A DNA stretch of 64,000 nucleotides from Corynebacterium auris (GTDB lineage Bacteria > Actinomycetota > Actinomycetes > Mycobacteriales > Mycobacteriaceae). Numbering within the stretch: the stretch's first letter is position 1; each line of letters starts with the position of its first letter. A program made the position numbers and the translations under genes. Of the stretch, positions 11,720 to 45,264 are shown in pieces. Below the pieces are notes generated by a model, which was not told where the DNA came from, did not search any database, and saw only the letters and a program-made list of their open reading frames with translations. The stretch lies in assembly GCF_030408575.1 (NCBI RefSeq), contig NZ_CP047047.1, positions 744,001-808,000 on the forward strand. Reading direction: 5' to 3'.

Positions 11720-11740
11720 TAATTGAGGGAGATCGTGGCA

Positions 11741-12460
11741 GTGACTCGCAGTGTGGTTTTCGACTTCGATGGAACGCTCGCTATCGGGCACGGGCCAGTT
11801 TTGGCCTACGCCAAAGCTGTGGCCCCGTCGGCCGGAGAAGCTTTCGTTTCCCGAGTCGAAGAGGCGCTGCGAGCATTCGACGCGGGGAGCCCCATGTACC
11901 GTGATGGTTACCACATCGTGGGGGAACTGGCCGCGCAGGACGGGGTCTCTTCTTGGACGATGCAGCAGGCCTACCAGACCAGCCGAGAAATCTTGGGTAC
12001 AGCGAAAGCTCCAGTGAAGGCTCCAGATGAAGTTGTGCCTTTACTTGAGGGGCTGAGCCAGCACGCTCATGTGCACCTTGCCACGAACGCGCCCCGCGTA
12101 GGAGTCGAGCGAGTTCTTGACTCCTGGGGTGTGTACCACTGCTTTGACCAGCTCCACTTCAACGTTGGTAAGCCGGACGGGCTCTACCCCATCCTGCGGC
12201 AATTGCTGAAGAACGGCCCAGTTTTGGCGGTGGGAGACATCATCGAGTTCGACCTACAGCCCGCCTTCGATCTGGGTGCGGATACTGCACTCGTTGGGGC
12301 GACAGCAACAGGGACGAACGCCGAGGTGACGATGCGCGGGGCAACGCTTACTGATCTTCGCGGCGAGCTGTGCGCGTGGGTCTCGCAATCACCCACCCTG
12401 ACACCACCTCATTCACCATCTCACCCGACACCTAGTCCGAAAGGTATTTCTCATGCGTAA
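11741..12460 (+). CDS. HAD-superfamily phosphatase, first gene of the phn-type operon
   Basis: The roughly 239-residue protein has all four HAD motifs: DFDGTLA (nucleophile Asp and general acid), LATNAP (motif II Thr), the Lys in NVGKPDGLYP, and GDIIEFD. A helical cap domain lies between motifs I and II. It probably dephosphorylates a small organophosphate. Its place at the head of a PhnDCE-type importer suggests it acts on the imported compound. I favour GTG 11741, about 9 bases after GAGGGAG; GTG 11735 is also possible. The C-terminal 20 residues are Pro/Ser/Thr-rich, and the 3' end overlaps phnD by 8 bases. Codon use is more relaxed than in the flanking core genes. Confidence 0.7.
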   Translation: MTRSVVFDFDGTLAIGHGPVLAYAKAVAPSAGEAFVSRVEEALRAFDAGSPMYRDGYHIVGELAAQDGVSSWTMQQAYQTSREILGTAKAPVKAPDEVVPLLEGLSQHAHVHLATNAPRVGVERVLDSWGVYHCFDQLHFNVGKPDGLYPILRQLLKNGPVLAVGDIIEFDLQPAFDLGADTALVGATATGTNAEVTMRGATLTDLRGELCAWVSQSPTLTPPHSPSHPTPSPKGISHA

Positions 12461-13460
12461 TTCTGCACTTGCGCTCGGTACTCTGACTGCTACCGCAGTG
12501 CTTTGCTTGACGGGTTGTTCCTCTGATCAGGACAGCGGCTCCGACGAGGCATCGAACTGGCCCGATTCCATCACGGTCTCTCTTGTTCCATCGACTGAAG
12601 GCGAGGACCTCGCGGAGGCGCTCGAGCCGCTGACGAACTACTTGTCCGAGAACCTCGGCATCGAGGTCAACGGTGTTGTGGCGAACGACTACGCTGCGAC
12701 TGTTGAGGCGATCGGGGCAAACCAAGCACAGGTCGCTATCACAGACGCGGGCTCCCTGTACAACGCCATGACGCAGCACAACGCTGAGCTCATCCTGCGT
12801 GACGTTCGCTTTGGAGCGACCTCCTACGCATCGGTGGCCTTCACCAATGACCCGGACAAGTACTGTGAGGAAGAACCGGTGATGGCTACGTACGAGGCCG
12901 AGGACACTGAGTTCGCGTATTGCAACGGTATCGAGAACGCGGGAGCCACGGCGACAGGCCAGGGGCCAGCGGCAACCGGCGCGTTTGACAACCTCGAGCC
13001 GGGCACGGCAGTTGCATTCCAAGCGGCAACGTCCCCGGCGGGCTACCAGTACCCGATCGTTGCACTTGAGGATGAGGACGTTGACGTTGATTCCCTCTCC
13101 CAGGTCCCAGTGCAAGGAAATAACAACGCCATGCTCGCAGTTCTCAGGGGCGACGCTGAGGTCGGGTTTGGTTTCTGGGATGCCCGCTCGTCCATCCTCG
13201 CCGAGGCCCCCGAGGCAGCAACCGAACTGGTTGCTTTCGCCTACACCGAGATGATCCCCAACGGTGGAGTCGTGGTCACCGAGGACCTTCCGGAGGACCT
13301 CAAGACCCAGCTCGCTGACCTCATGGATTCCTACGCCGAGTCCTCGGACGAGGCCAAGCAGGTCATGCAGGACCTCGTCGGACTGACCGACTGGACGAAG
13401 GAAACGAACGAGGAAGAGATCGAACGCTACGGCGAGATCTACACCCGTTTCAGCTCCTAG
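12453..13460 (+). CDS. Phosphonate/phosphite/phosphate-type ABC transporter substrate-binding lipoprotein
   Basis: The 335-residue protein has a lipoprotein signal peptide with lipobox LTGC (acylated Cys22). It then has the PhnD-like fold, with [16 protein letters not shown] opening (residues about 40-52), a central [14 protein letters not shown] segment and a C-terminal NEEEIERYG helix. It would capture a phosphonate, phosphite or phosphate ester outside the membrane and deliver it to the two PhnE permeases. Ligand specificity cannot be read from sequence. It overlaps the HAD gene and is followed 16 bases later by the ATPase gene. Confidence 0.8.
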
Positions 13461-13476
13461 AACACAAGGAACCGCC

Positions 13477-14283
13477 ATGCTGCAGGATGATGTTGGCCAC
13501 ACCCGCGAGCCGTGGCCTATTGTGCTCGATAGCGTCTCCGTGACGTATCCGAACGGGACGCAAGCCCTGAAAGACGTCTCGCTTCGGATAGAACCTGGTG
13601 AGATGGTTGCCGTCGTGGGGCTTTCCGGCTCCGGCAAATCGACGCTGATTAGAACCATCAATGGTCTCGCCGAGCCGACCGCAGGACGGGTCAGCGTTGG
13701 CCCGCACGTCATCAGCGAACTCAAGGGCAAGCAACTACGCGAAGCACGCGGCCAGATCGGCATGATCTTCCAGCAATTTAATTTGGCGGAGCGTACCGAT
13801 GTCTACCACAACGTGCTGGTCGGCACTTTCGCTCGTACGCCTTGGTGGCGTTCCCTCTTCGACATTCCGGCGGACGAGGACAAGGAGCTTGCGCTCCGCT
13901 GCTTAGATTCCGTCGGAATGCTCGAGAAAATATGGGCCCGCGCTGGTGCGCTATCCGGAGGGCAGAAGCAGCGTGTCGCCATCGCACGGGCTCTGACCCA
14001 GCAGCCCGCCGTCATGCTTGCCGACGAACCAGTGGCCTCCCTCGACCCGCCCACAGCTCACTCGGTGATGGCTGACCTAATGCGCATCAACCGGGAGCAA
14101 GGATTGACTGTGCTGGTTAATCTGCATGTCATTGATCTCGCCCGCCAGTACACAACGAGGGTGGTCGGTCTACGTCAGGGCGAGCTCGTCTACGATGGTC
14201 CGGCCGCCGACGCGACAGATGCTGACTTCGAGCAGATCTACGGGCGTAGCGTGCTGCCGGGTGATATGACGGGGAGGCGCTGA
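13477..14283 (+). CDS. phnC: Phosphonate-type ABC transporter ATP-binding protein
   Basis: The 268-residue ATPase has Walker [10 protein letters not shown] (residues 48-56), Q-loop FQQFNL, signature LSGGQKQR, Walker B AVMLADEP and an H-loop in [12 protein letters not shown]. The C-terminal [14 protein letters not shown] is typical of PhnC. AAGGA precedes the ATG. It energises import through the adjacent PhnE pair. It overlaps the first permease gene by one base. Confidence 0.88.
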
Positions 14284-15092
14284 TGACGCCTGCGCATATG
14301 CGGCCCACGCTGCCGGAGAAGCCTACGCAGCGTGTACGAACGGCTCTGATTGTCGTGGCCGTCGTCGGATTTACTGCTCTCACCATGACGCCGCGCATCG
14401 GCGGCATCGACGTCGACATTGCGTCGATAGCGAGGAACTGGCGCAATGGTGCCGACAAACTGCTGCAAATGCTCCAGCCGAACCTCGCCTTCGTCCCTAG
14501 GACAGTAGGACCGATGGTGGAGACATTACAAATGGCCATAGTCGGTGCGGTGCTTTCTGCTGTGATCTCGATTCCACTGACGTTGTGGGCCGCCACTCCG
14601 ACGAATCCAAACAGTGTCGGGCGAGCCATTGTCCGCACCGTAATTAACGTCGTGCGTTCTGTACCAGATCTCGTCTACGCCTCGATCCTCGTGGCGATGG
14701 TCGGCGTTGGCGCACTGCCCGGCGTGATCACCCTTTTTCTCTTCAACATTGGCATCGTGGTCAAGCTTGTCTCCGAGGCGATCGACTCCGAAAATCACGG
14801 ATACATTGAGGCTGGGCGCGCAGCGGGTGGTACCCAGTTTCAGATCAATCGCGCCATGGCCCTTCCGGAGGTCATGCCGTTGTTCATGAACCAGTGGCTG
14901 TACACGCTGGAGCTCAACGTCCGAGTCTCGGCAATCCTAGGGCTTGTCGGTGCAGGTGGAATCGGGCGCCTGCTCGAGGAGCGTCGCTCGTTCTTCGCGT
15001 ACGAGGACGTGTCCATCATCATCCTAGAGATCCTCGCGGTCGTCGTGCTGGTGGAGATGCTGTCGAACTGGTTGCGAAAGAGGCTGATCTAA
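14283..15092 (+). CDS. phnE: Phosphonate-type ABC transporter permease (first PhnE)
   Basis: The 269-residue permease has about six membrane helices. Its EAA coupling loop is GYIEAGRAAGGTQFQINR, and LGLVGAGGIG is the PhnE/methionine-type motif near the end. It pairs with the next permease to form the heterodimeric channel. ATG 14283 overlaps the phnC stop (TGATG), and its own stop directly abuts the next ATG, so the three are tightly coupled. Confidence 0.87.
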   Translation: MTPAHMRPTLPEKPTQRVRTALIVVAVVGFTALTMTPRIGGIDVDIASIARNWRNGADKLLQMLQPNLAFVPRTVGPMVETLQMAIVGAVLSAVISIPLTLWAATPTNPNSVGRAIVRTVINVVRSVPDLVYASILVAMVGVGALPGVITLFLFNIGIVVKLVSEAIDSENHGYIEAGRAAGGTQFQINRAMALPEVMPLFMNQWLYTLELNVRVSAILGLVGAGGIGRLLEERRSFFAYEDVSIIILEILAVVVLVEMLSNWLRKRLI

Positions 15093-15977
15093 ATGGACAT
15101 GACGCTTCCCCGCACACCGAGGAAGACATACGAGACTGTGGTCTCGATCGTCATCGCGGTGGTCATTGTGGTGTCTTTCTCCTCTCTGCGCATCACGTGG
15201 AGCGACCTGCCCCAGGTCCCCGCCCAGGTGTGGGAGTACCTCACGCTGATGTTCAAGGACCCCGACACGTCGCGTTTATCACGGGCGCTGACAGAGATGT
15301 GGCGTTCCATTTCTATGGCGTGGATCGGCATGATCGGTACCGTCATTTTTGCGATTCCGCTTGGCATGCTGGCGGCTAGGGGAGTTGGCCCGGCATGGCT
15401 ACGTGCAGCACTCCGAGGGCTGTTCGCTGTGATCCGCGCTTTCCCTGAAGCGGTGATTGCAATTATTTTGCTCACTGTGACCGGCCTGACTCCGTTCACT
15501 GGTGTGTTGGCGCTTGCGATCTCTGGCATCGGCCAGCAATCGAAGTGGGCATACGAGAGTATCGAGTCGCTGCCACCGGGCCCTGCTGAGGCCGTCCGCG
15601 CTGCTGGAGGTACGACGGCCGAGACGGTGCGTTGGGCGTTGTGGCCTCAAGCCGCTCCGGCGCTCATTTCCTTCGCGCTGTACCGTTTCGAGATCAACAT
15701 CCGAACCTCCGCGGTACTGGGCATGGTGGGGGCTGGCGGCATAGGCGACATGCTGTCGAACTACACCAACTATCGTCAGTGGGACGTGGTAGGTATGACG
15801 CTCATCGTCATCATCATCGCCACGATGGTTGTCGACGTGATTTCCGGCGCCATTCGCAACCGCATCATGAGAGGAGCCACCGTTCGTGCCAGTGTCCCCG
15901 AGACCGGGAGCGATTCCGAGCGTGAGGATCGCCGCCGCGATGTCCTCGTTGCAGCCGAAGGAGCGCGCGGTCGCTGA
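15093..15977 (+). CDS. phnE: Phosphonate-type ABC transporter permease (second PhnE)
   Basis: The 294-residue permease has a cytoplasmic N-terminus, about six helices, an EAA loop (AEAVRAAGGTTAETVRWA) and LGMVGAGGIGDML. The start codon is directly after the first permease's stop. The last 30 or so residues, rich in charged residues, lie beyond the last helix and are encoded in the 92 bases that overlap the regulator gene. That tail may be a by-product of the overlap rather than a functional domain. Confidence 0.87.
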   Translation: MDMTLPRTPRKTYETVVSIVIAVVIVVSFSSLRITWSDLPQVPAQVWEYLTLMFKDPDTSRLSRALTEMWRSISMAWIGMIGTVIFAIPLGMLAARGVGPAWLRAALRGLFAVIRAFPEAVIAIILLTVTGLTPFTGVLALAISGIGQQSKWAYESIESLPPGPAEAVRAAGGTTAETVRWALWPQAAPALISFALYRFEINIRTSAVLGMVGAGGIGDMLSNYTNYRQWDVVGMTLIVIIIATMVVDVISGAIRNRIMRGATVRASVPETGSDSEREDRRRDVLVAAEGARGR

Positions 15978-36355: not shown

Positions 36356-37816
36356 GTGACTGAAGCTACCTCCACCCCCAACGACTGGAACCACAAGCTG
36401 ACCCTCGCGCAGGAGATGCTTCCCCTGATCAGCCAGCTGCACCGCGAGAACAACGTGGTCACCTCGATCTACGGGCGGCTGCTTGTGGGAGTGACCGACA
36501 TCGACATCATCAAGGCGCACCGCTACGCCCGGCGCATCGTCGAGCGGGAGCTGCCTTTGGATGACACGCTGCCGATCCTCAGGGAACTCGTCCAGTTCAA
36601 CCTCGGCACTGCGTCCATCGACCTCGGGCGCCTGGCCAAGAACTTCTCGCGCGCCGAGGGCCAGGACCTGCGGTCCTTCCTCGAAGCGGAGCTTGGCGAG
36701 GTGATCAACGGCGGCGACGAGCTCGAACCGCGCGACGTGGTCCTCTACGGCTTCGGCCGCATCGGCCGCCTCCTCGCGCGCATCCTCATCGCCCGCGAGG
36801 CGATGTACGGCGGCGTACGTCTGCGCGCGGTGGTTGTACGCAAGAAGGGCGCCGACGACATCGTCAAGCGCGCCTCCCTGCTGCGCCGCGACTCCGTCCA
36901 CGGCCCCTTCAACGGGACGATCTCCGTCGACGCGGACAAGGAGATCATCTGGGCCAACGGCACCCCGATCCAGATGATCTACTCGGATGATCCCGCCGGG
37001 ATCGACTACACCAGCTACGGCATCGACAACGCCATCGTGGTGGACAACACGGGCCGCTGGCGCGACCGCGAGGGCCTGTCCCAGCACCTGTCTTCCACGG
37101 GCGTCGACCGCGTCGTTCTCACCGCGCCGGGCAAGGGGGATGTGCGCAACATCGTTTACGGCGTCAACCACGCCGACATCACCGGCGAGGAGTCCGACCG
37201 CGTCATCTCCGCGGCCTCGTGCACCACCAACGGCATTACCCCGGTGCTCAAGGTGATCAACGACCGCTACGGCGTGAAACACGGGCACGTGGAAACCGTG
37301 CACGCGTACACCAACGACCAAAACTTGGCGGACAACTACCACAAGGGCCCGCGCCGCGGGCGTGCCGCCGCGCTGAACATGGTGCTCACCGAAACCGGCG
37401 CGGCCAAGGCAGTGTCCAAGGCGCTGCCCGAGTTCGAAGGCAAGCTGACCGGCAACGCCATCCGCGTGCCCACCCCTGACGTTTCTATGGCCGTGCTGAA
37501 CCTCGACCTCGAGCGCGAGGTGGAAAAGGACGAGGTCAACGACTTCCTCCGCCGCGTGTCCACCGATTCGAACCTGCGCCAGCAGATCGACTACATCAAT
37601 TCCCCGGATATCGTCTCCACCGACCTGCTCGGCTCCACCCACGCCGGCGTGGTCGACGGCCTGGCCACGATCGCCTCGGGCAACCACCTCGTCCTCTACG
37701 TCTGGTACGACAACGAGTACGGTTACTCTAACCAGGTCATCCGCATCGTCGAGGAGATCGGCGGCGTGCGCCCGAACATCTACCCGGAGCGCAAGGACCC
37801 TCAGGAGATTCGCTAA
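36356..37816 (+). CDS. gapB: Long-form glyceraldehyde-3-phosphate dehydrogenase (GapB/GapX)
   Basis: The 486-residue protein has a roughly 125-residue N-terminal extension before the Rossmann GFGRIGRL, the active-site SAASCTTNGITP (Cys near 289), HAYTNDQN and the C-terminal YVWYDNEYGYSNQ. This long form matches corynebacterial GapB/GapX, an NADP-linked, gluconeogenic-type enzyme in C. glutamicum. GTG 36356 follows AAGGA. Its 3' end overlaps the convergent glycosyltransferase by four bases. Confidence 0.92.
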   Translation: MTEATSTPNDWNHKLTLAQEMLPLISQLHRENNVVTSIYGRLLVGVTDIDIIKAHRYARRIVERELPLDDTLPILRELVQFNLGTASIDLGRLAKNFSRAEGQDLRSFLEAELGEVINGGDELEPRDVVLYGFGRIGRLLARILIAREAMYGGVRLRAVVVRKKGADDIVKRASLLRRDSVHGPFNGTISVDADKEIIWANGTPIQMIYSDDPAGIDYTSYGIDNAIVVDNTGRWRDREGLSQHLSSTGVDRVVLTAPGKGDVRNIVYGVNHADITGEESDRVISAASCTTNGITPVLKVINDRYGVKHGHVETVHAYTNDQNLADNYHKGPRRGRAAALNMVLTETGAAKAVSKALPEFEGKLTGNAIRVPTPDVSMAVLNLDLEREVEKDEVNDFLRRVSTDSNLRQQIDYINSPDIVSTDLLGSTHAGVVDGLATIASGNHLVLYVWYDNEYGYSNQVIRIVEEIGGVRPNIYPERKDPQEIR

Positions 37817-38970
37817 CTCGTGGTTGTGCGGCGCTGGGCAGCGGCCTGCACCGCCGCCTCGTAGACCTCGACGAGCTTCTCGGTGGAGGCCCGCCAGGAC
37901 CAGCGCTCGGCTTCCTGGCGGGCCGCGCGCGCCATCCGGTCGCGGGTGTCCGCATCGCGCAGTAGCTCCACCACCCGCTCGGCCCACGCGGAATCAGGAA
38001 GCTGCGGGTCGACGAGAAAACCGGTCTCACCGTCGTTGATGACGAAGGGGACCCCGCCCGCGCAGGCGCCCACCACGGGAACTCCCGAGGCGAAAGACTC
38101 GAGGGCGACAAAGCCGAGCGTCTCGGTTGTGGAAGGAAAGAGGAAGACGTCGCCGGAGGCGAATGCCGCGGCGAGGGTGTCGCCGGAGAGATAGCCGGTG
38201 AAGGTGATCCACTCCCTGTCCATCCGTTCGCGCAGCTGAGCATACTGGGGGCCTTCGCCGACGAGCGCTAGGCGGGCGTCGGGGACCGTGCGGCGCACTT
38301 CCTCCATGATTCCGAGGGTGCGTTCGACATCTTTTTCAGCAGAGATCCGGCCGACGTAAGTGACGAGGGGCGCGTCGGGGTGGCCGTCGCTAAGCAAAGT
38401 GCGGGCCTCGAGAGAACGGCGGGAAGGGGAAAATCCCTCGGTGTCCACGGCCTTCGGCCACAGCTCGAGGTTGCTCAGGCCGTAGTCGGCGGCCTTCTCA
38501 AGCATCGGGGCCGAGGTGACCAAGTTCCGCTCGGCGCGATTGTGGAACAGCTGTAGGCCGAACTTAGCCAGCGGCCTCACCCAGGAAATACCGAGCCTGC
38601 GGGTGTACTCGGGGACGTCGGTGTGGAAGGAGGCGACCACCGGGATGCCTCTGCCGCGCGCGTACAGGGCGGAAAACCCCGCCGTCCACATTGGGTTGAT
38701 GGCGTGGGCGACGTCGGGGCGGAACTCCGCGAGCGCGCGCGGCATGCGGGGGGAGGGCAGGCCGAAGTGGATCTCCGGGTAGACCGGCCAGAACGGTAGG
38801 GAGGGCACCGAGACCACCTTGAAGCCGGCGTATTCGCTCGGCGGGTTGCCGGTGGCGAAGACGAGCACCTCGTGGCCCATGTCGGCGAGCTGCTCAAGGG
38901 TGCGCGACGTACGGGTGACCACCCCGTCGATCTTCGGCAGGAAGACCTCGGTGAAGACGGCGATGCGCAT
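37813..38970 (-). CDS. GT4 glycosyltransferase, SqdX-like sulfoquinovosyltransferase
   Basis: The 385-residue GT-B enzyme has MRIAVFTEVFLPKIDGVVTR, VASFHTDVPEYTRRLG, YVGRISAEKDVERTL, the acidic catalytic FPSTTETLGFVALESFASG and VINDGETGFLV. The N-terminal and E-x7-E regions closely resemble cyanobacterial SqdX, which transfers sulfoquinovose from UDP-sulfoquinovose to diacylglycerol. Its ATG abuts the sqdB stop (TAAATG), so the two form an operon. A mannosyltransferase such as MgtA/PimB is an alternative. The neighbour is what decides. Confidence 0.72.
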   Translation of the reverse strand: MRIAVFTEVFLPKIDGVVTRTSRTLEQLADMGHEVLVFATGNPPSEYAGFKVVSVPSLPFWPVYPEIHFGLPSPRMPRALAEFRPDVAHAINPMWTAGFSALYARGRGIPVVASFHTDVPEYTRRLGISWVRPLAKFGLQLFHNRAERNLVTSAPMLEKAADYGLSNLELWPKAVDTEGFSPSRRSLEARTLLSDGHPDAPLVTYVGRISAEKDVERTLGIMEEVRRTVPDARLALVGEGPQYAQLRERMDREWITFTGYLSGDTLAAAFASGDVFLFPSTTETLGFVALESFASGVPVVGACAGGVPFVINDGETGFLVDPQLPDSAWAERVVELLRDADTRDRMARAARQEAERWSWRASTEKLVEVYEAAVQAAAQRRTTTS

Positions 38971-40167
38971 TTACTTCTCGCCGTCGGGTACGCCTTCGGC
39001 CTGGGCGGCGGTCCACAGGGACCGCGCCGGGATCTTCGAGCGGTCCGCCCGGTCCGCGTACTTCTTGGCCACGTCCTCGACCTCGCGCAAAAGCCCCTCT
39101 TCGAGGAACGTCGGCTCCAAGCCCAGGCTGAGGAAGGTGTCGTTGGAGACGTGCAGCTCGTTTTCCGCTGACTCTTTGCGCGGGTTGGGCACCATGGCCA
39201 CCTCCGCGCCGGAGATTCGAGAGATGAGCTCGGCGAGATCGCGCACGCGGTGGGTCTCGGTCATCTGGTTGAAGATCTTGACGCGCTCGCCGCGCTGCGG
39301 CGGGTTCTCCACCGCGAGCTGGATGCACTTGGCCATGTCCCGGATGTGGATGAACGCGCGGGTCTGGCCGCCCGTGCCGTGGACGGTCAGTGGGTAGCCC
39401 ACGGCCGCCTGCATAAGGAAGCGGTTGAGCACCGTGCCGTAGTCGCCGTCGTAGTCGAAGCGGTTGATAAGGCGCTCGTCGCGTTCCGTCTGCGGGGTGT
39501 GCGTACCCCAGATGATGCCCTGGTGCAGGTCGGTGATGCGCAGCTCGTCGTTCTTGGCGTAGTAGGCAAACAGGTTCTGGTCCAGCACCTTCGTCATGTG
39601 GTACACGGAGCCGGGGTTGGTGGGGTAGAGGATCTGCTTTTCAACCGTGCCGCCTTCGTCGGTGGAGACGGTGACATCGAGGTAGCCCTCCGGGATCTTC
39701 ATCCCGGCGGTGCCGTAGCCGTAGACGCCCATGGTGCCAAGGTGGACGACGTGGACGTCGAGGCCCGATTCGACGATGGCGACGAGCAGGTTGTGCGTGG
39801 CGTTGACGTTGTTGTCCACCGTGTAGCGCTTCGTGCGGTGGTTCTTCATGGAGTACGGTGCCGCCCGCTGCTCCGCGAAGTGAATGACGGTGTCGGGGCG
39901 CTCGCGTGTGATGAACTCGAGCAGCCCGTCGAAGTCGCGGGCGACGTCAAGGTTGACGAAGCCGATCTCGCGGCCCGAGACCTCTGTCCACGCGGCCAGG
40001 CGCTCCTCGATCGACGCGATCGGGGTGAGCGACTCCGCGCCGAGTTCTTCGTCGATGGCGCGCCGCGAGAGGTTGTCCACGATGGTGACGTCGTGGCCGA
40101 GGTCGGACAGGTGCAACGCCGCCGGCCAGCCGCAGAATCCGTCACCGCCAAGAACTGCAATCCGCAC
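38971..40167 (-). CDS. sqdB: UDP-sulfoquinovose synthase
   Basis: The 398-residue SDR-extended enzyme has the SqdB/SQD1 hallmarks: GGDGFCGWPAALHLSDLGHDV as the NAD fold, TMGVYGYGTAGMKIPEG, PTNPGSVYHMTK (YxxxK catalytic pair) and RFDYDGDYGTVLNRFLMQAA. It makes UDP-sulfoquinovose from UDP-glucose and sulfite. The length is as in plant and cyanobacterial enzymes. It is the first gene of the sqdB-glycosyltransferase operon, divergent from the FAD dehydrogenase. Confidence 0.9.
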   Translation of the reverse strand: MRIAVLGGDGFCGWPAALHLSDLGHDVTIVDNLSRRAIDEELGAESLTPIASIEERLAAWTEVSGREIGFVNLDVARDFDGLLEFITRERPDTVIHFAEQRAAPYSMKNHRTKRYTVDNNVNATHNLLVAIVESGLDVHVVHLGTMGVYGYGTAGMKIPEGYLDVTVSTDEGGTVEKQILYPTNPGSVYHMTKVLDQNLFAYYAKNDELRITDLHQGIIWGTHTPQTERDERLINRFDYDGDYGTVLNRFLMQAAVGYPLTVHGTGGQTRAFIHIRDMAKCIQLAVENPPQRGERVKIFNQMTETHRVRDLAELISRISGAEVAMVPNPRKESAENELHVSNDTFLSLGLEPTFLEEGLLREVEDVAKKYADRADRSKIPARSLWTAAQAEGVPDGEK

Positions 40168-40368
40168 AACAATCCCTTTCTCCGAACTCGTTCTTCGAAC
40201 TTAGCGCGTGCTCGCGCTCGACGTATTAGCCGCGACGCATTCAGCCACGGGCTTCTAGCAAGATTACAGTTTGCGCCAACAAGGCGCTCGGCGAACCGGG
40301 TGAACGCTTGGTGACGCGGAGGGTACTTTCCGGGACACGGGGGGCCCGCGTTCGGTAGTGTTTCGCCC
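40168..40368. other. Divergent promoter region of sqdB and the FAD dehydrogenase
   Basis: It holds a short GAACTCGTTC palindrome followed by TTCGAA near the sqdB side. I find no clear -10/-35 pair and no RNA gene. Confidence 0.35.
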
Positions 40369-42998: not shown

Positions 42999-43967
42999 TT
43001 AATTCTGGCGAAGGCGATCGAGAACCTGGTTGATGTAGCTTTCATCCATGATGTAGCCGTTTTCTGTCTCTGTCAGAACGCCCTCTTTAACCCGGCGATT
43101 CCACCACGTAATGATTGACCCCAATGTGTAGCCTACCCCGCCGTACTTCTGGCCAGGGACTGTGAATGAGTCGCCCATTAAATCCCCGAATGTCAGTTCC
43201 TGCCCTTCGCGCCCCCAACGGCCATATGTCCTGGGATCGTTTTGCGGTTCAACGTGCTGGACGAGCCAGTACACCACGTCGTAAAAGGTGAGGCCTTCTG
43301 GCGTATCTCCGGTAATCGCTACCCCTGTGGAATTTGTGATCGGCTCAGTCGCCTTGCGCAGCAACTGTTCCATATCTGGTGTTGGGGTGGCGGCTAGTGC
43401 TTGCTGGAGTGGCTGGGACAGTGCGCCGTATCGCACTCCTTTGATGCCGATGCCGTCCTGGCTGACTTCTTCTGCCTCACTAGCGGAGGGGTATGGTTCA
43501 AGTTGGGCCAGGAAGTCGTCGAATGAGTCTGCGACTAGTACTTTTGCACCGTCGGGGTCGGTGTCGAGATACAGTACTGATCCTGCTGGAAACTCAGCCA
43601 AGTCGTAGTTGATGACAAAGCACTGGTGCATGCCGTCTTCGCTGTCCGCGCATAGCAGGACCTCACGGGGGATTTCCCATTCCTCCATCAAGAAGGCTGC
43701 CTGCTCTAGCAAGTCGACATTCGAGTTGTTGGAGGTCGTTCCGTTGCCGTAGATGCTGTCTACGGCAACCTCGATCACGTCACCGTCGGGAAGTTCTATC
43801 TCTGGGAGGTAGCAGGTGTTCATGCTCAGGGACCCTCCCCCTGTCTGAGAGAGGAGACGTGTGTAGTCATCCGGCAGGCGACGGCCCAGGCCGTGCTCGA
43901 TTTCACGGATGCGCTGTTCATCTGCTGGCTGTGCCGGGTATTCAAAAAGAGTGCTGTAGTCGGTCAT
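42999..43967 (-). CDS. SUKH (SMI1/KNR4) family protein, copy 1
   Basis: The 322-residue protein has an N-terminal SMI1/KNR4 (SUKH) domain: IREIEHGLGRRLPDDYTRLL, FLMEEWEIPREVLL, SEDGMHQCFVINYDLAEFPAG. A C-terminal region of about 150 residues, with ATPTPDMEQLLRKA and a Trp-rich patch, is shared with copy 2. SUKH proteins often serve as immunity proteins to polymorphic toxins, but no toxin gene is adjacent. Lower GC and nearby mobile-element scars suggest transfer. Confidence 0.7.
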   Translation of the reverse strand: MTDYSTLFEYPAQPADEQRIREIEHGLGRRLPDDYTRLLSQTGGGSLSMNTCYLPEIELPDGDVIEVAVDSIYGNGTTSNNSNVDLLEQAAFLMEEWEIPREVLLCADSEDGMHQCFVINYDLAEFPAGSVLYLDTDPDGAKVLVADSFDDFLAQLEPYPSASEAEEVSQDGIGIKGVRYGALSQPLQQALAATPTPDMEQLLRKATEPITNSTGVAITGDTPEGLTFYDVVYWLVQHVEPQNDPRTYGRWGREGQELTFGDLMGDSFTVPGQKYGGVGYTLGSIITWWNRRVKEGVLTETENGYIMDESYINQVLDRLRQN

Positions 43968-44101: not shown

Positions 44102-44290
44102 ATGCCCGTGCGAAAACCCCGCGGCGTGTACAAAGGTCGCGCGGAAGTACTTACCGGCTCCCGGGTTGCGCAGGCCAACCAGTGGGTGACCGGTGGTGTG
44201 CCCAAAGCGGAGGTGGCCCGCCGACTCGGGATCGGACGGACCACCCGGTATGCATACCTAGCGGAGGGGGCTGAACAAGATTCGAGTTAG
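44102..44290 (+). pseudogene. Resolvase/invertase C-terminal fragment 2
   Basis: Reads from ATG 44102 as RGVYKGRAEVLT and VPKAEVARRLGIGRTTRYAYL, the end of a Tn3-type serine recombinase with its helix-turn-helix. The catalytic part is lacking. It overlaps the stop of the second SUKH gene by four bases. It is better preserved than fragment 1. Confidence 0.6.
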
Positions 44291-45264
44291 ACCTCGGTTA
44301 TTGGGTCTTCTTTGCGGAGGTTTTCGATGATGGTGTTGATGTAGTCCTCGTCGATGATGTAGCCGGCGGGGGTTTCGGTCATGATGTTGTATTCGACTCG
44401 TATTTTCCACCACCACTCGACGGTGGGCTGGTTCCAAATGAAGCCGTATTTTTGACCGTCGGCGAGGAAGGATTTGCCGATCAACGTGTACATGTTAGGG
44501 GTGAGAATGGTGGTGCTTAGTCCCATGTAGGTCAGTGGATCTGGGTGCGGTTGGACGTGTTGCGCCACCCAGTAAAGAAGGTCTTGAAATCGCCTCCCCT
44601 CGTTACTGTTGTGCATCATACTGAGCCCAAATGAGTTGGCTAGGGGTGCGACTGCTTTACGCAGTAGGTATTCCATGTCGGGGGTGGGAGTTGCGGCGAT
44701 GGCGCGGGTGAGGTCATCGGAAAGTTTTCCGTGCCACACGCCTTTGATTCCCATCCCCTCTTGGCCTGCGCTTGGGGAGTCTTCTTCGTCATCTCGGTTG
44801 TAGGGTTCGAGTTTGGTGAAAAAGTCGGTGACGGAGTCGGCGACCTGGGTCATTTTCCCGCCGGGGTCGGTGTCGAGGTGCAGAATAACCCCTGCGGGGT
44901 AGTCGGGGAGGTCGTAGTTGATGACGAAGCAGTTGTGCATGCCATCTTCGGTGGTGGCGAACAGGAGAACCTCCTCGGGGATTTCCCATTCCTCCATGAG
45001 GTAGGTGGCATCGGTGGCCAGATCGAGGGGGAGGCCGGTACGTGTGCTGCCGTTGCCGAAGATGTCGTCGGTTGCCAGGCCTCCGACCCCTTCGGGGAGG
45101 CCCGGCATGACGCACTTGTCGAGTTTGAGGGTGCCGCCGCCGGTTTCTTTGATCAAGGCCCGGTAGTCGTCGGGCAGTTTTCTGCCGATGGCATGCTCGA
45201 TCTCGGCGAGGCGGGCATCGTCAGCCGGTTCAGCGGGTTCAGAAAAGAATTTGGAAAAGGTCAT
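44287..45264 (-). CDS. SUKH (SMI1/KNR4) family protein, copy 2
   Basis: The 325-residue paralog of the protein at 42999 shares LPDDYR, LMEEWEIPEEVLLFAT, EDGMHNCFVINYDLPDYPAG, GIKGV and ATPTPDMEYLLRKA over the whole length. It carries the same two-part architecture. A transposase fragment lies upstream. It is most likely an orphan immunity protein, or part of a duplicated accessory unit; function is not established. Confidence 0.7.
   Translation of the reverse strand: MTFSKFFSEPAEPADDARLAEIEHAIGRKLPDDYRALIKETGGGTLKLDKCVMPGLPEGVGGLATDDIFGNGSTRTGLPLDLATDATYLMEEWEIPEEVLLFATTEDGMHNCFVINYDLPDYPAGVILHLDTDPGGKMTQVADSVTDFFTKLEPYNRDDEEDSPSAGQEGMGIKGVWHGKLSDDLTRAIAATPTPDMEYLLRKAVAPLANSFGLSMMHNSNEGRRFQDLLYWVAQHVQPHPDPLTYMGLSTTILTPNMYTLIGKSFLADGQKYGFIWNQPTVEWWWKIRVEYNIMTETPAGYIIDEDYINTIIENLRKEDPITEV

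Follow-up and report, generated by a model that had tools for sequence, protein, structure and literature searches.

The known producers of sulfoquinovosyl diacylglycerol (SQDG) are chiefly phototrophs and some rhizobia, and two adjoining genes in a 64,000-nucleotide stretch of the Corynebacterium auris genome (contig NZ_CP047047.1, positions 744,001 to 808,000; this whole stretch is called the window, and positions are counted from its first letter) raise the question of whether part of the genus Corynebacterium makes this lipid as well. The genes are sqdB, predicted to encode UDP-sulfoquinovose synthase, and a gene for a glycosyltransferase of family GT4:

38971..40167, minus strand: sqdB, UDP-sulfoquinovose synthase (SDR family) of the proteobacterial-type clade; 398 amino acids (aa), GTG start
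37813..38970, minus strand: sqdX-like GT4 glycosyltransferase, predicted to be a sulfoquinovosyltransferase acting on diacylglycerol; 385 aa, ATG start
38968..38973, minus strand: TAA-ATG junction, with the stop codon of sqdB followed immediately by the start codon of the GT4 gene (from the open reading frame (ORF) positions)

An initial annotation of the window had reported both ORFs on the minus strand together with their TAAATG junction, several SqdB motifs and an E-x7-E region in the GT4, all of which were present as described. It had also proposed that the two genes form a coherent route to a sulfoquinovosyl lipid, and gene identity and adjacency agree with this proposal. As judged from the sequence comparisons below, the gene pair is real and conserved, and the pathway is probably functional.

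Identity of SqdB and conservation of the gene pair

Residues 2–385 of SqdB, a full-length protein, aligned with the Arabidopsis SQD1 structures 1qrr and 1i24 at an E-value of approximately 1e-100. The protein contains LGTMG (residues 143–147) followed by VYGYG, YHMTK (189–193) and RFDYDGDYGT (236–245), as well as the NAD-binding motif GGDGxxGW (GGDGF at residue 7). The active-site columns of Thr145, Tyr189 and Lys193 were invariant across 11 aligned SqdB proteins; we take GGDGxxGW to be the NAD-binding site of SQD1, and Thr145 and Tyr189/Lys193 to correspond to its catalytic Thr and Tyr-x3-Lys. Furthermore, LGTMG and YHx[ST]K were kept in all 30 Corynebacterium loci examined, among them that of the window, from the 86 genomes that carry a match.

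With the NCBIfam model for UDP-sulfoquinovose synthase, NF041015, SqdB obtained 341 bits (E-value 6.7e-102) against a curated cut-off of 575 bits. Since the SqdB proteins of Sinorhizobium meliloti (332 bits), Marinovum (338 bits), a cyanobacterium (487 bits) and Alicyclobacillus (486 bits) also fall below that value, the cut-off is uninformative as a test of SqdB membership. The other NCBIfam models listed for SqdB gave 60.5 bits or less. Of the control genomes, only those of Synechococcus elongatus and Sulfolobus acidocaldarius gave an NF041015 match; that of C. glutamicum gave none.

In tblastn comparisons against plasmids, SqdB was 66.8% identical to the S. meliloti pSymB protein, 67.6% to those of two Sinorhizobium sp. 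records and 69.4% to that of Marinovum, whereas identity to cyanobacterial SqdB reached 42–45%. A 43-row tree was divided by a branch with 100/99 support, which placed the Corynebacterium proteins together with S. meliloti, Marinovum, Pelagovum and scattered Mycobacteriales, and the cyanobacteria, Bacillota, an acidobacterium, archaea and other actinobacterial SqdB proteins on the opposite side; the long-branch row L124 (42% identity) also fell on the Corynebacterium side, where its placement is unsure. By these sequence relationships, the window SqdB is of the rhizobial/roseobacter (proteobacterial) type and not of the cyanobacterial type. Together with the SQD1 match, the well-supported clade bears out the initial identification of sqdB, and the enzyme lies inside the SqdB family tree rather than in a different sugar epimerase family, the latter being the placement that the initial annotation had said would count against it.

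The search across Corynebacterium that the initial annotation had proposed, with phylogeny, found both genes in 85 of 242 genomes, i.e., a conserved two-gene pathway in about one third of those sampled. Matches to sqdB (E ≤ 1e-40) and to the GT4 (E ≤ 1e-60) were each obtained in 86 genomes, and in every one of the 85 with both, the GT4 gene lies downstream of sqdB, on the same strand and at a distance of at most 107 nt. This constant order and the TAA-ATG junction make a single transcription unit likely. Moreover, the conservation of the pair, the SQD1 and NF041015 matches and the Pfam domains of the GT4 (see below) indicate that the two ORFs are not a product of chance, and the genomic evidence makes the pair a trait that part of the genus has inherited, not an oddity of one strain.

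The genome with sqdB only (G219) was rejected as a full carrier, its match being a remnant of about 100 residues, and the genome with an apparent GT4 only (G194) was rejected as well, its match (36% identity) being to an MgtA-type gene, a name that we assume from the N-terminal sequence and a neighbourhood near ribosomal protein genes. Within the 85, matches are incomplete for sqdB in G047 and G204 and for the GT4 in G129, G173 and G236, the last in two pieces. Named orthologues come from C. timonense (87%), C. capitovis, C. riegelii, C. afermentans, C. ureicelerivorans and C. cystitidis, among others. In 20 carriers whose flanks were compared, an enoyl-CoA-hydratase-like gene was near in 15, a glyceraldehyde-3-phosphate dehydrogenase gene in 14 and an FAD dehydrogenase gene in seven, with none of the three in two carriers; this recurrence indicates partial synteny around the locus, which is probably old in the clade. 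One genome also has a second sqdB copy (G023:C1:1975682-1976197, minus strand), a partial one that covers residues 2–173 and is 85% identical to the window protein.

Beyond the genus, the SqdB model (E ≤ 1e-50) matched in 100 of 396 genomes of a phylum sample, so SqdB-like genes are not rare, and in 33 of 298 genomes of an order sample. The GT4 at E ≤ 1e-65 was found in four of these 298, namely two Corynebacterium and two members of another genus of the same family (G518 and G448), and all four have an adjoining sqdB, truncated in one of them. In G518 (loci L145/L269), the pair (SqdB 64%, GT4 45% identity) is preceded by an MMPL-type gene. In G448 (L273), the GT4 gene follows an sqdB without approximately its first 159 residues, and a stretch present upstream in G518 is missing; with its shortened sqdB, the G448 pair is in decay. 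A more distant GT4 (37%), one that falls inside SqdX, was found in G263 (L087) beside an SqdB from the opposite side of the SqdB tree.

Affinities of the glycosyltransferase

The GT4 carries the Pfam domains PF13439, PF00534 and PF13692 (GT4 and glycosyltransferase group 1) and no GT8 domain, and its E-x7-E region is ETLGFVALE (residues 283–291). None of the NCBIfam models identifies it: the top match, GlcN_PG_synth, gave 149.5 bits against a cut-off of 480, with 155–165 bits for three SqdX references (two cyanobacterial, one from Alicyclobacillus) and 137 bits for the MgtA-type protein of the same genome. The GT4 that stands beside sqdB in cyanobacteria we take to be SqdX from this position, and the labels MgtA, PimA, PimB and MshA of the other glycosyltransferases compared are likewise presumed, some of them from Pfam domains.

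A GT4 search of 80 loci gave 17 matches at E ≤ 1e-15, of which 13 were used as SqdX references and four archaeal ones (74–108 bits) were dropped; the 63 loci with no match include four of the 11 cyanobacterial ones (L187, L208, L220 and L221, the last of which ends just behind sqdB). Twelve of the 13 references lie close behind sqdB (at most 517 nt), with the GT4 starting at the end of the sqdB match in L214 and L223, and one (L204) is on the opposite strand, at a distance of 1.2 kb. The window GT4 is 41–45% identical (298–326 bits) to the GT4 located 94–517 nt downstream of sqdB in seven of the 11 cyanobacterial loci, compared with 35% (189 bits) for the MgtA-type paralogue of its own genome.

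In line with these values, the SqdX profile built from the 13 references scored higher than the MgtA profile for all 19 Corynebacterium glycosyltransferases tested (out of 86), with 372–421 against 228–274 bits. At the 33 alignment columns in which the SqdX and the MgtA group were each at least 80% agreed, on different residues, the Corynebacterium proteins showed the SqdX state in 19, the MgtA state in two and neither in 12; ten of the 19 SqdX-like residues, and neither of the two MgtA-like ones, were absent from five outgroup GT4s. The donor-site motif is ETLGF/L in the SqdX-type GT4 and ETFCQ in MgtA.

Two glycosyltransferase trees were computed, of 40 and 49 rows, with 14 and 19 of the 86 Corynebacterium GT4s, respectively; L131, L126, L258 and L259 were omitted from the second, and L130 and L133 yielded no alignment. 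In both trees MgtA formed a starred clade without the sqdB-linked Corynebacterium GT4s. In the 40-row tree the Corynebacterium GT4 and SqdX were found on one side of a branch with 73/68 support, and the L087 protein was placed inside SqdX. Two results of the approximately unbiased (AU) test were replaced by repeats after mis-specified constraints: the p of 0.0485 for Corynebacterium held with SqdX arose from the omission of L087, which sits inside SqdX, and for the p of 2.9e-6 for Corynebacterium and L145 held with MgtA nested rows had been omitted.

The profiles and the diagnostic columns agree with the initial annotation in placing the GT4 nearer to SqdX than to MgtA or PimB. The clear clustering with PimB/MgtA that the initial annotation had named as evidence to the contrary was seen in neither tree, both of which keep the GT4 out of the MgtA clade; a deep joining with MgtA-like rows was, however, not rejected by the AU test (p 0.195). 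We therefore take the GT4 to be SqdX-like on its sequence features, its deep tree position being left open by the two trees.

Predicted product and its rivals

In the pathway that we propose, NAD-bound SqdB would convert UDP-glucose and sulfite to UDP-sulfoquinovose by means of Thr145 and Tyr189/Lys193, and the SqdX/SQD2-type GT4 would transfer sulfoquinovose to diacylglycerol, yielding SQDG, a membrane lipid that is anionic and free of phosphorus. The sulfite would be provided by sulfate-assimilation genes of the CysH, CysD and CysN types, which the source genome holds in one cluster with a CysI-type gene (types from Pfam domains and gene order; the Cys labels are ones that we presume). Enzyme activity, donor, acceptor, product and envelope role are all predicted here from the genes, and we consider it likely that sqdB and the GT4 gene represent a minimal sulfolipid operon with SQDG as its product.

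Several observations weigh against this assignment. In the 40-row tree, constraining the Corynebacterium GT4 to join the MgtA-like rows costs 1.5 log units (the AU p of 0.195 given above), and in the 49-row tree the far outgroups join on the Corynebacterium branch and leave SqdX and MgtA together (86/86). In Corynebacterium, identity is 49–87% for the GT4 and, among complete copies, 79–93% for SqdB, which makes the GT4 the faster-evolving of the two. Rhodococcus-type loci pair an SqdB of the same type (type b) with other proteins, namely a 639-aa protein and a GT2 glycosyltransferase; on a Pelagovum plasmid (L122) a type-b sqdB is found in a glycan-like cluster; and in L134–L142, also type-b SqdB loci, no relative of the window GT4 was present among the nearby ORFs. 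Since type-b sqdB genes elsewhere adjoin other glycosyltransferases or other clusters, SqdB alone does not prove SQDG.

With regard to these loci themselves, those of the Rhodococcus type (L119, L143 and L144) encode a protein of about 640 aa (the L119 copy matched no Pfam family) and a GT2 of about 624 aa, and possibly make a different sulfoquinovosyl product; near the plasmid copy L119 lie genes for a SulP transporter and an alkyl-sulfatase-like protein. In L122, sqdB adjoins a PAPS (3'-phosphoadenosine-5'-phosphosulfate) reductase gene, with a DUF4422 protein and a GT2 further on, and the whole looks like a glycan cluster with its own sulfite supply.

The main rival to SQDG is a different sulfonated glycolipid, in which SqdB makes UDP-sulfoquinovose and the GT4 uses another acceptor such as phosphatidylinositol, glucuronosyl- or mannosyl-diacylglycerol or a further envelope lipid. 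The trees do not pin the GT4 inside SqdX, its MgtA-type relative in the same genome acts on other lipids (a function that we presume for MgtA), and an MMPL-type transporter gene precedes the pair in G518. UDP-glucuronate chemistry is also probably available, as 85 of the 86 sqdB genomes contain a nucleotide-sugar dehydrogenase of TIGR03026 (UDP-glucose dehydrogenase family), the exception being G236, which is 77% complete. The profile scores and the outgroup-polarised columns favour SqdX nonetheless, and we regard this rival as unlikely.

Considerably less probable is that the GT4 is a recruited mannosyl- or glucuronosyltransferase of MgtA/PimB type, unrelated in function to SqdB, with UDP-sulfoquinovose being used elsewhere, e.g., in a glycan. 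It shares a GT4 superclade with that type, the AU test tolerates a grouping with MgtA-like rows, and one source names the C. capitovis orthologue a GDP-mannose-dependent alpha-mannosyltransferase; however, the genome has a separate MgtA-type gene, the starred MgtA clade is formed without the sqdB-linked proteins, none of the polarised columns is MgtA-specific, and co-occurrence with sqdB is near-perfect, with adjacency in 85 of 85 genomes. That the SDR enzyme is some other nucleotide-sugar epimerase or dehydratase is very improbable, for its score below the NF041015 cut-off is shared by the S. meliloti and cyanobacterial SqdB, its identity to the former is 67% within a well-supported clade, and the other NCBIfam models listed for it stay at or below 60.5 bits.

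The SQDG assignment also draws on known systems. A S. meliloti gene, which we take to be the sqdB compared here, is reportedly essential for SQDG according to the title of Weissenmayer 2000. As in the sqdBDC operon of that organism, whose SqdB belongs to the same clade, a glycosyltransferase gene stands directly behind sqdB in Corynebacterium; the second S. meliloti gene, however, is SqdD, a GT8 protein (PF01501), in place of a GT4. A GT8-type gene follows sqdB in the S. meliloti and Marinovum records, and a search of the source genome and 12 other actinobacterial genomes returned no SqdD homologue at E ≤ 1e-5. Like the cyanobacterial sqdB-sqdX and the plant SQD1/SQD2 systems, the Corynebacterium pair combines its sqdB with an SqdX-type GT4, downstream as in the cyanobacterial loci above; unlike them, it occurs in a non-photosynthetic actinobacterium, and its SqdB is separated from the cyanobacterial ones by the deepest split of the SqdB tree. 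The mycobacterial and corynebacterial GT4 MgtA, for which both the name and a function on lipids are presumed, belongs to the same superclade and differs in being a separate paralogue in the same genome and in its donor-site motif.

For R. sphaeroides, PMC11346425 states that deletion of sqdB from the sqdBDC operon abolishes SQDG; the SqdB sequence comparison given here is with the S. meliloti protein. Since PMC5638391 describes the R. sphaeroides SqdD as having no structural relationship to the enzyme that makes SQDG in oxygenic phototrophs, the sqdB-GT4 pair is, by sequence type, a mosaic of a proteobacterial-type SqdB and a cyanobacterial-type SqdX. The predicted pathway is thus a known one in a new combination, with a rhizobium-type first and a cyanobacterium-type second enzyme. 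In searches of open-access literature, which mostly do not extend to subscription papers, none of the papers listed dealt with SQDG or sqdB in Corynebacterium, as judged by title and opening of the abstract.

If the prediction is correct, it would suggest that the routes of proteobacteria and cyanobacteria can exchange SqdB and SqdX as modules. It would also give Corynebacterium, a genus that includes commensals of skin and mucosa and has otherwise well-studied envelope lipids, an anionic lipid that contains sulfur but no phosphorus, and make the carriers possible local sources of sulfoquinovose. We further raise, as a doubtful extension, that part of Corynebacterium builds a sulfoquinovosyl glycolipid by this mosaic operon and that the resident MgtA adds mannose to it, so that mannosyl-sulfoquinovosyl-diacylglycerol would be a regular envelope component, corresponding in sulfonated form to the mannosyl-glucuronosyl lipid that C. 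glutamicum makes. A replacement of glucuronosyl (GlcA)-diacylglycerol by SQDG was rejected, as the sqdB carriers keep the TIGR03026 family; its near-universal presence in the genus (231 of 242 genomes) indicates that sqdB does not replace UDP-glucuronate.

Phosphate context and neighbouring genes

The initial annotation had connected the pair to phosphate limitation through a phosphate-type operon at 11.7 kb, a link that we rejected. This operon consists of a HAD-like gene (11723-12460; assigned by eye, without an NCBIfam match) followed by a PhnD-PhnC-PhnE-PhnE transporter (12453-15977, plus strand) of the phosphonate/phosphite ABC type, with the PhnD-like protein (TIGR01098) and both PhnE proteins above cut-off, and is not pst. 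Inspection by eye of eight aligned regions upstream of sqdB, with no systematic motif scan, identified no Pho element or regulator site and a single candidate feature, on weak evidence:

40261..40266, minus strand: TAATCT, a conserved -10-like element that precedes sqdB by about 95 nt

Several relatives have GTAACGT or GTAATNT at a similar position in this alignment. SQDG substitutes for phosphatidylglycerol under phosphate limitation in other organisms, according to PMC5638391, and a similar substitution for phospholipid is conceivable in Corynebacterium.

Downstream of the GT4 gene lies a convergent gene for a 496-aa glyceraldehyde-3-phosphate dehydrogenase (NF006139, above cut-off), the two stop codons overlapping by 4 bases, and upstream of sqdB a divergent gene for an FAD-binding dehydrogenase (NF009472, above cut-off). 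Further along the window, an SMI1/KNR4 (SUKH) domain protein is encoded at 42999-43967 (minus strand), and a second ORF at approximately 44290-45264 (minus strand) has an N-terminus that looks alike by eye; these two may provide immunity within a contact-dependent toxin system.

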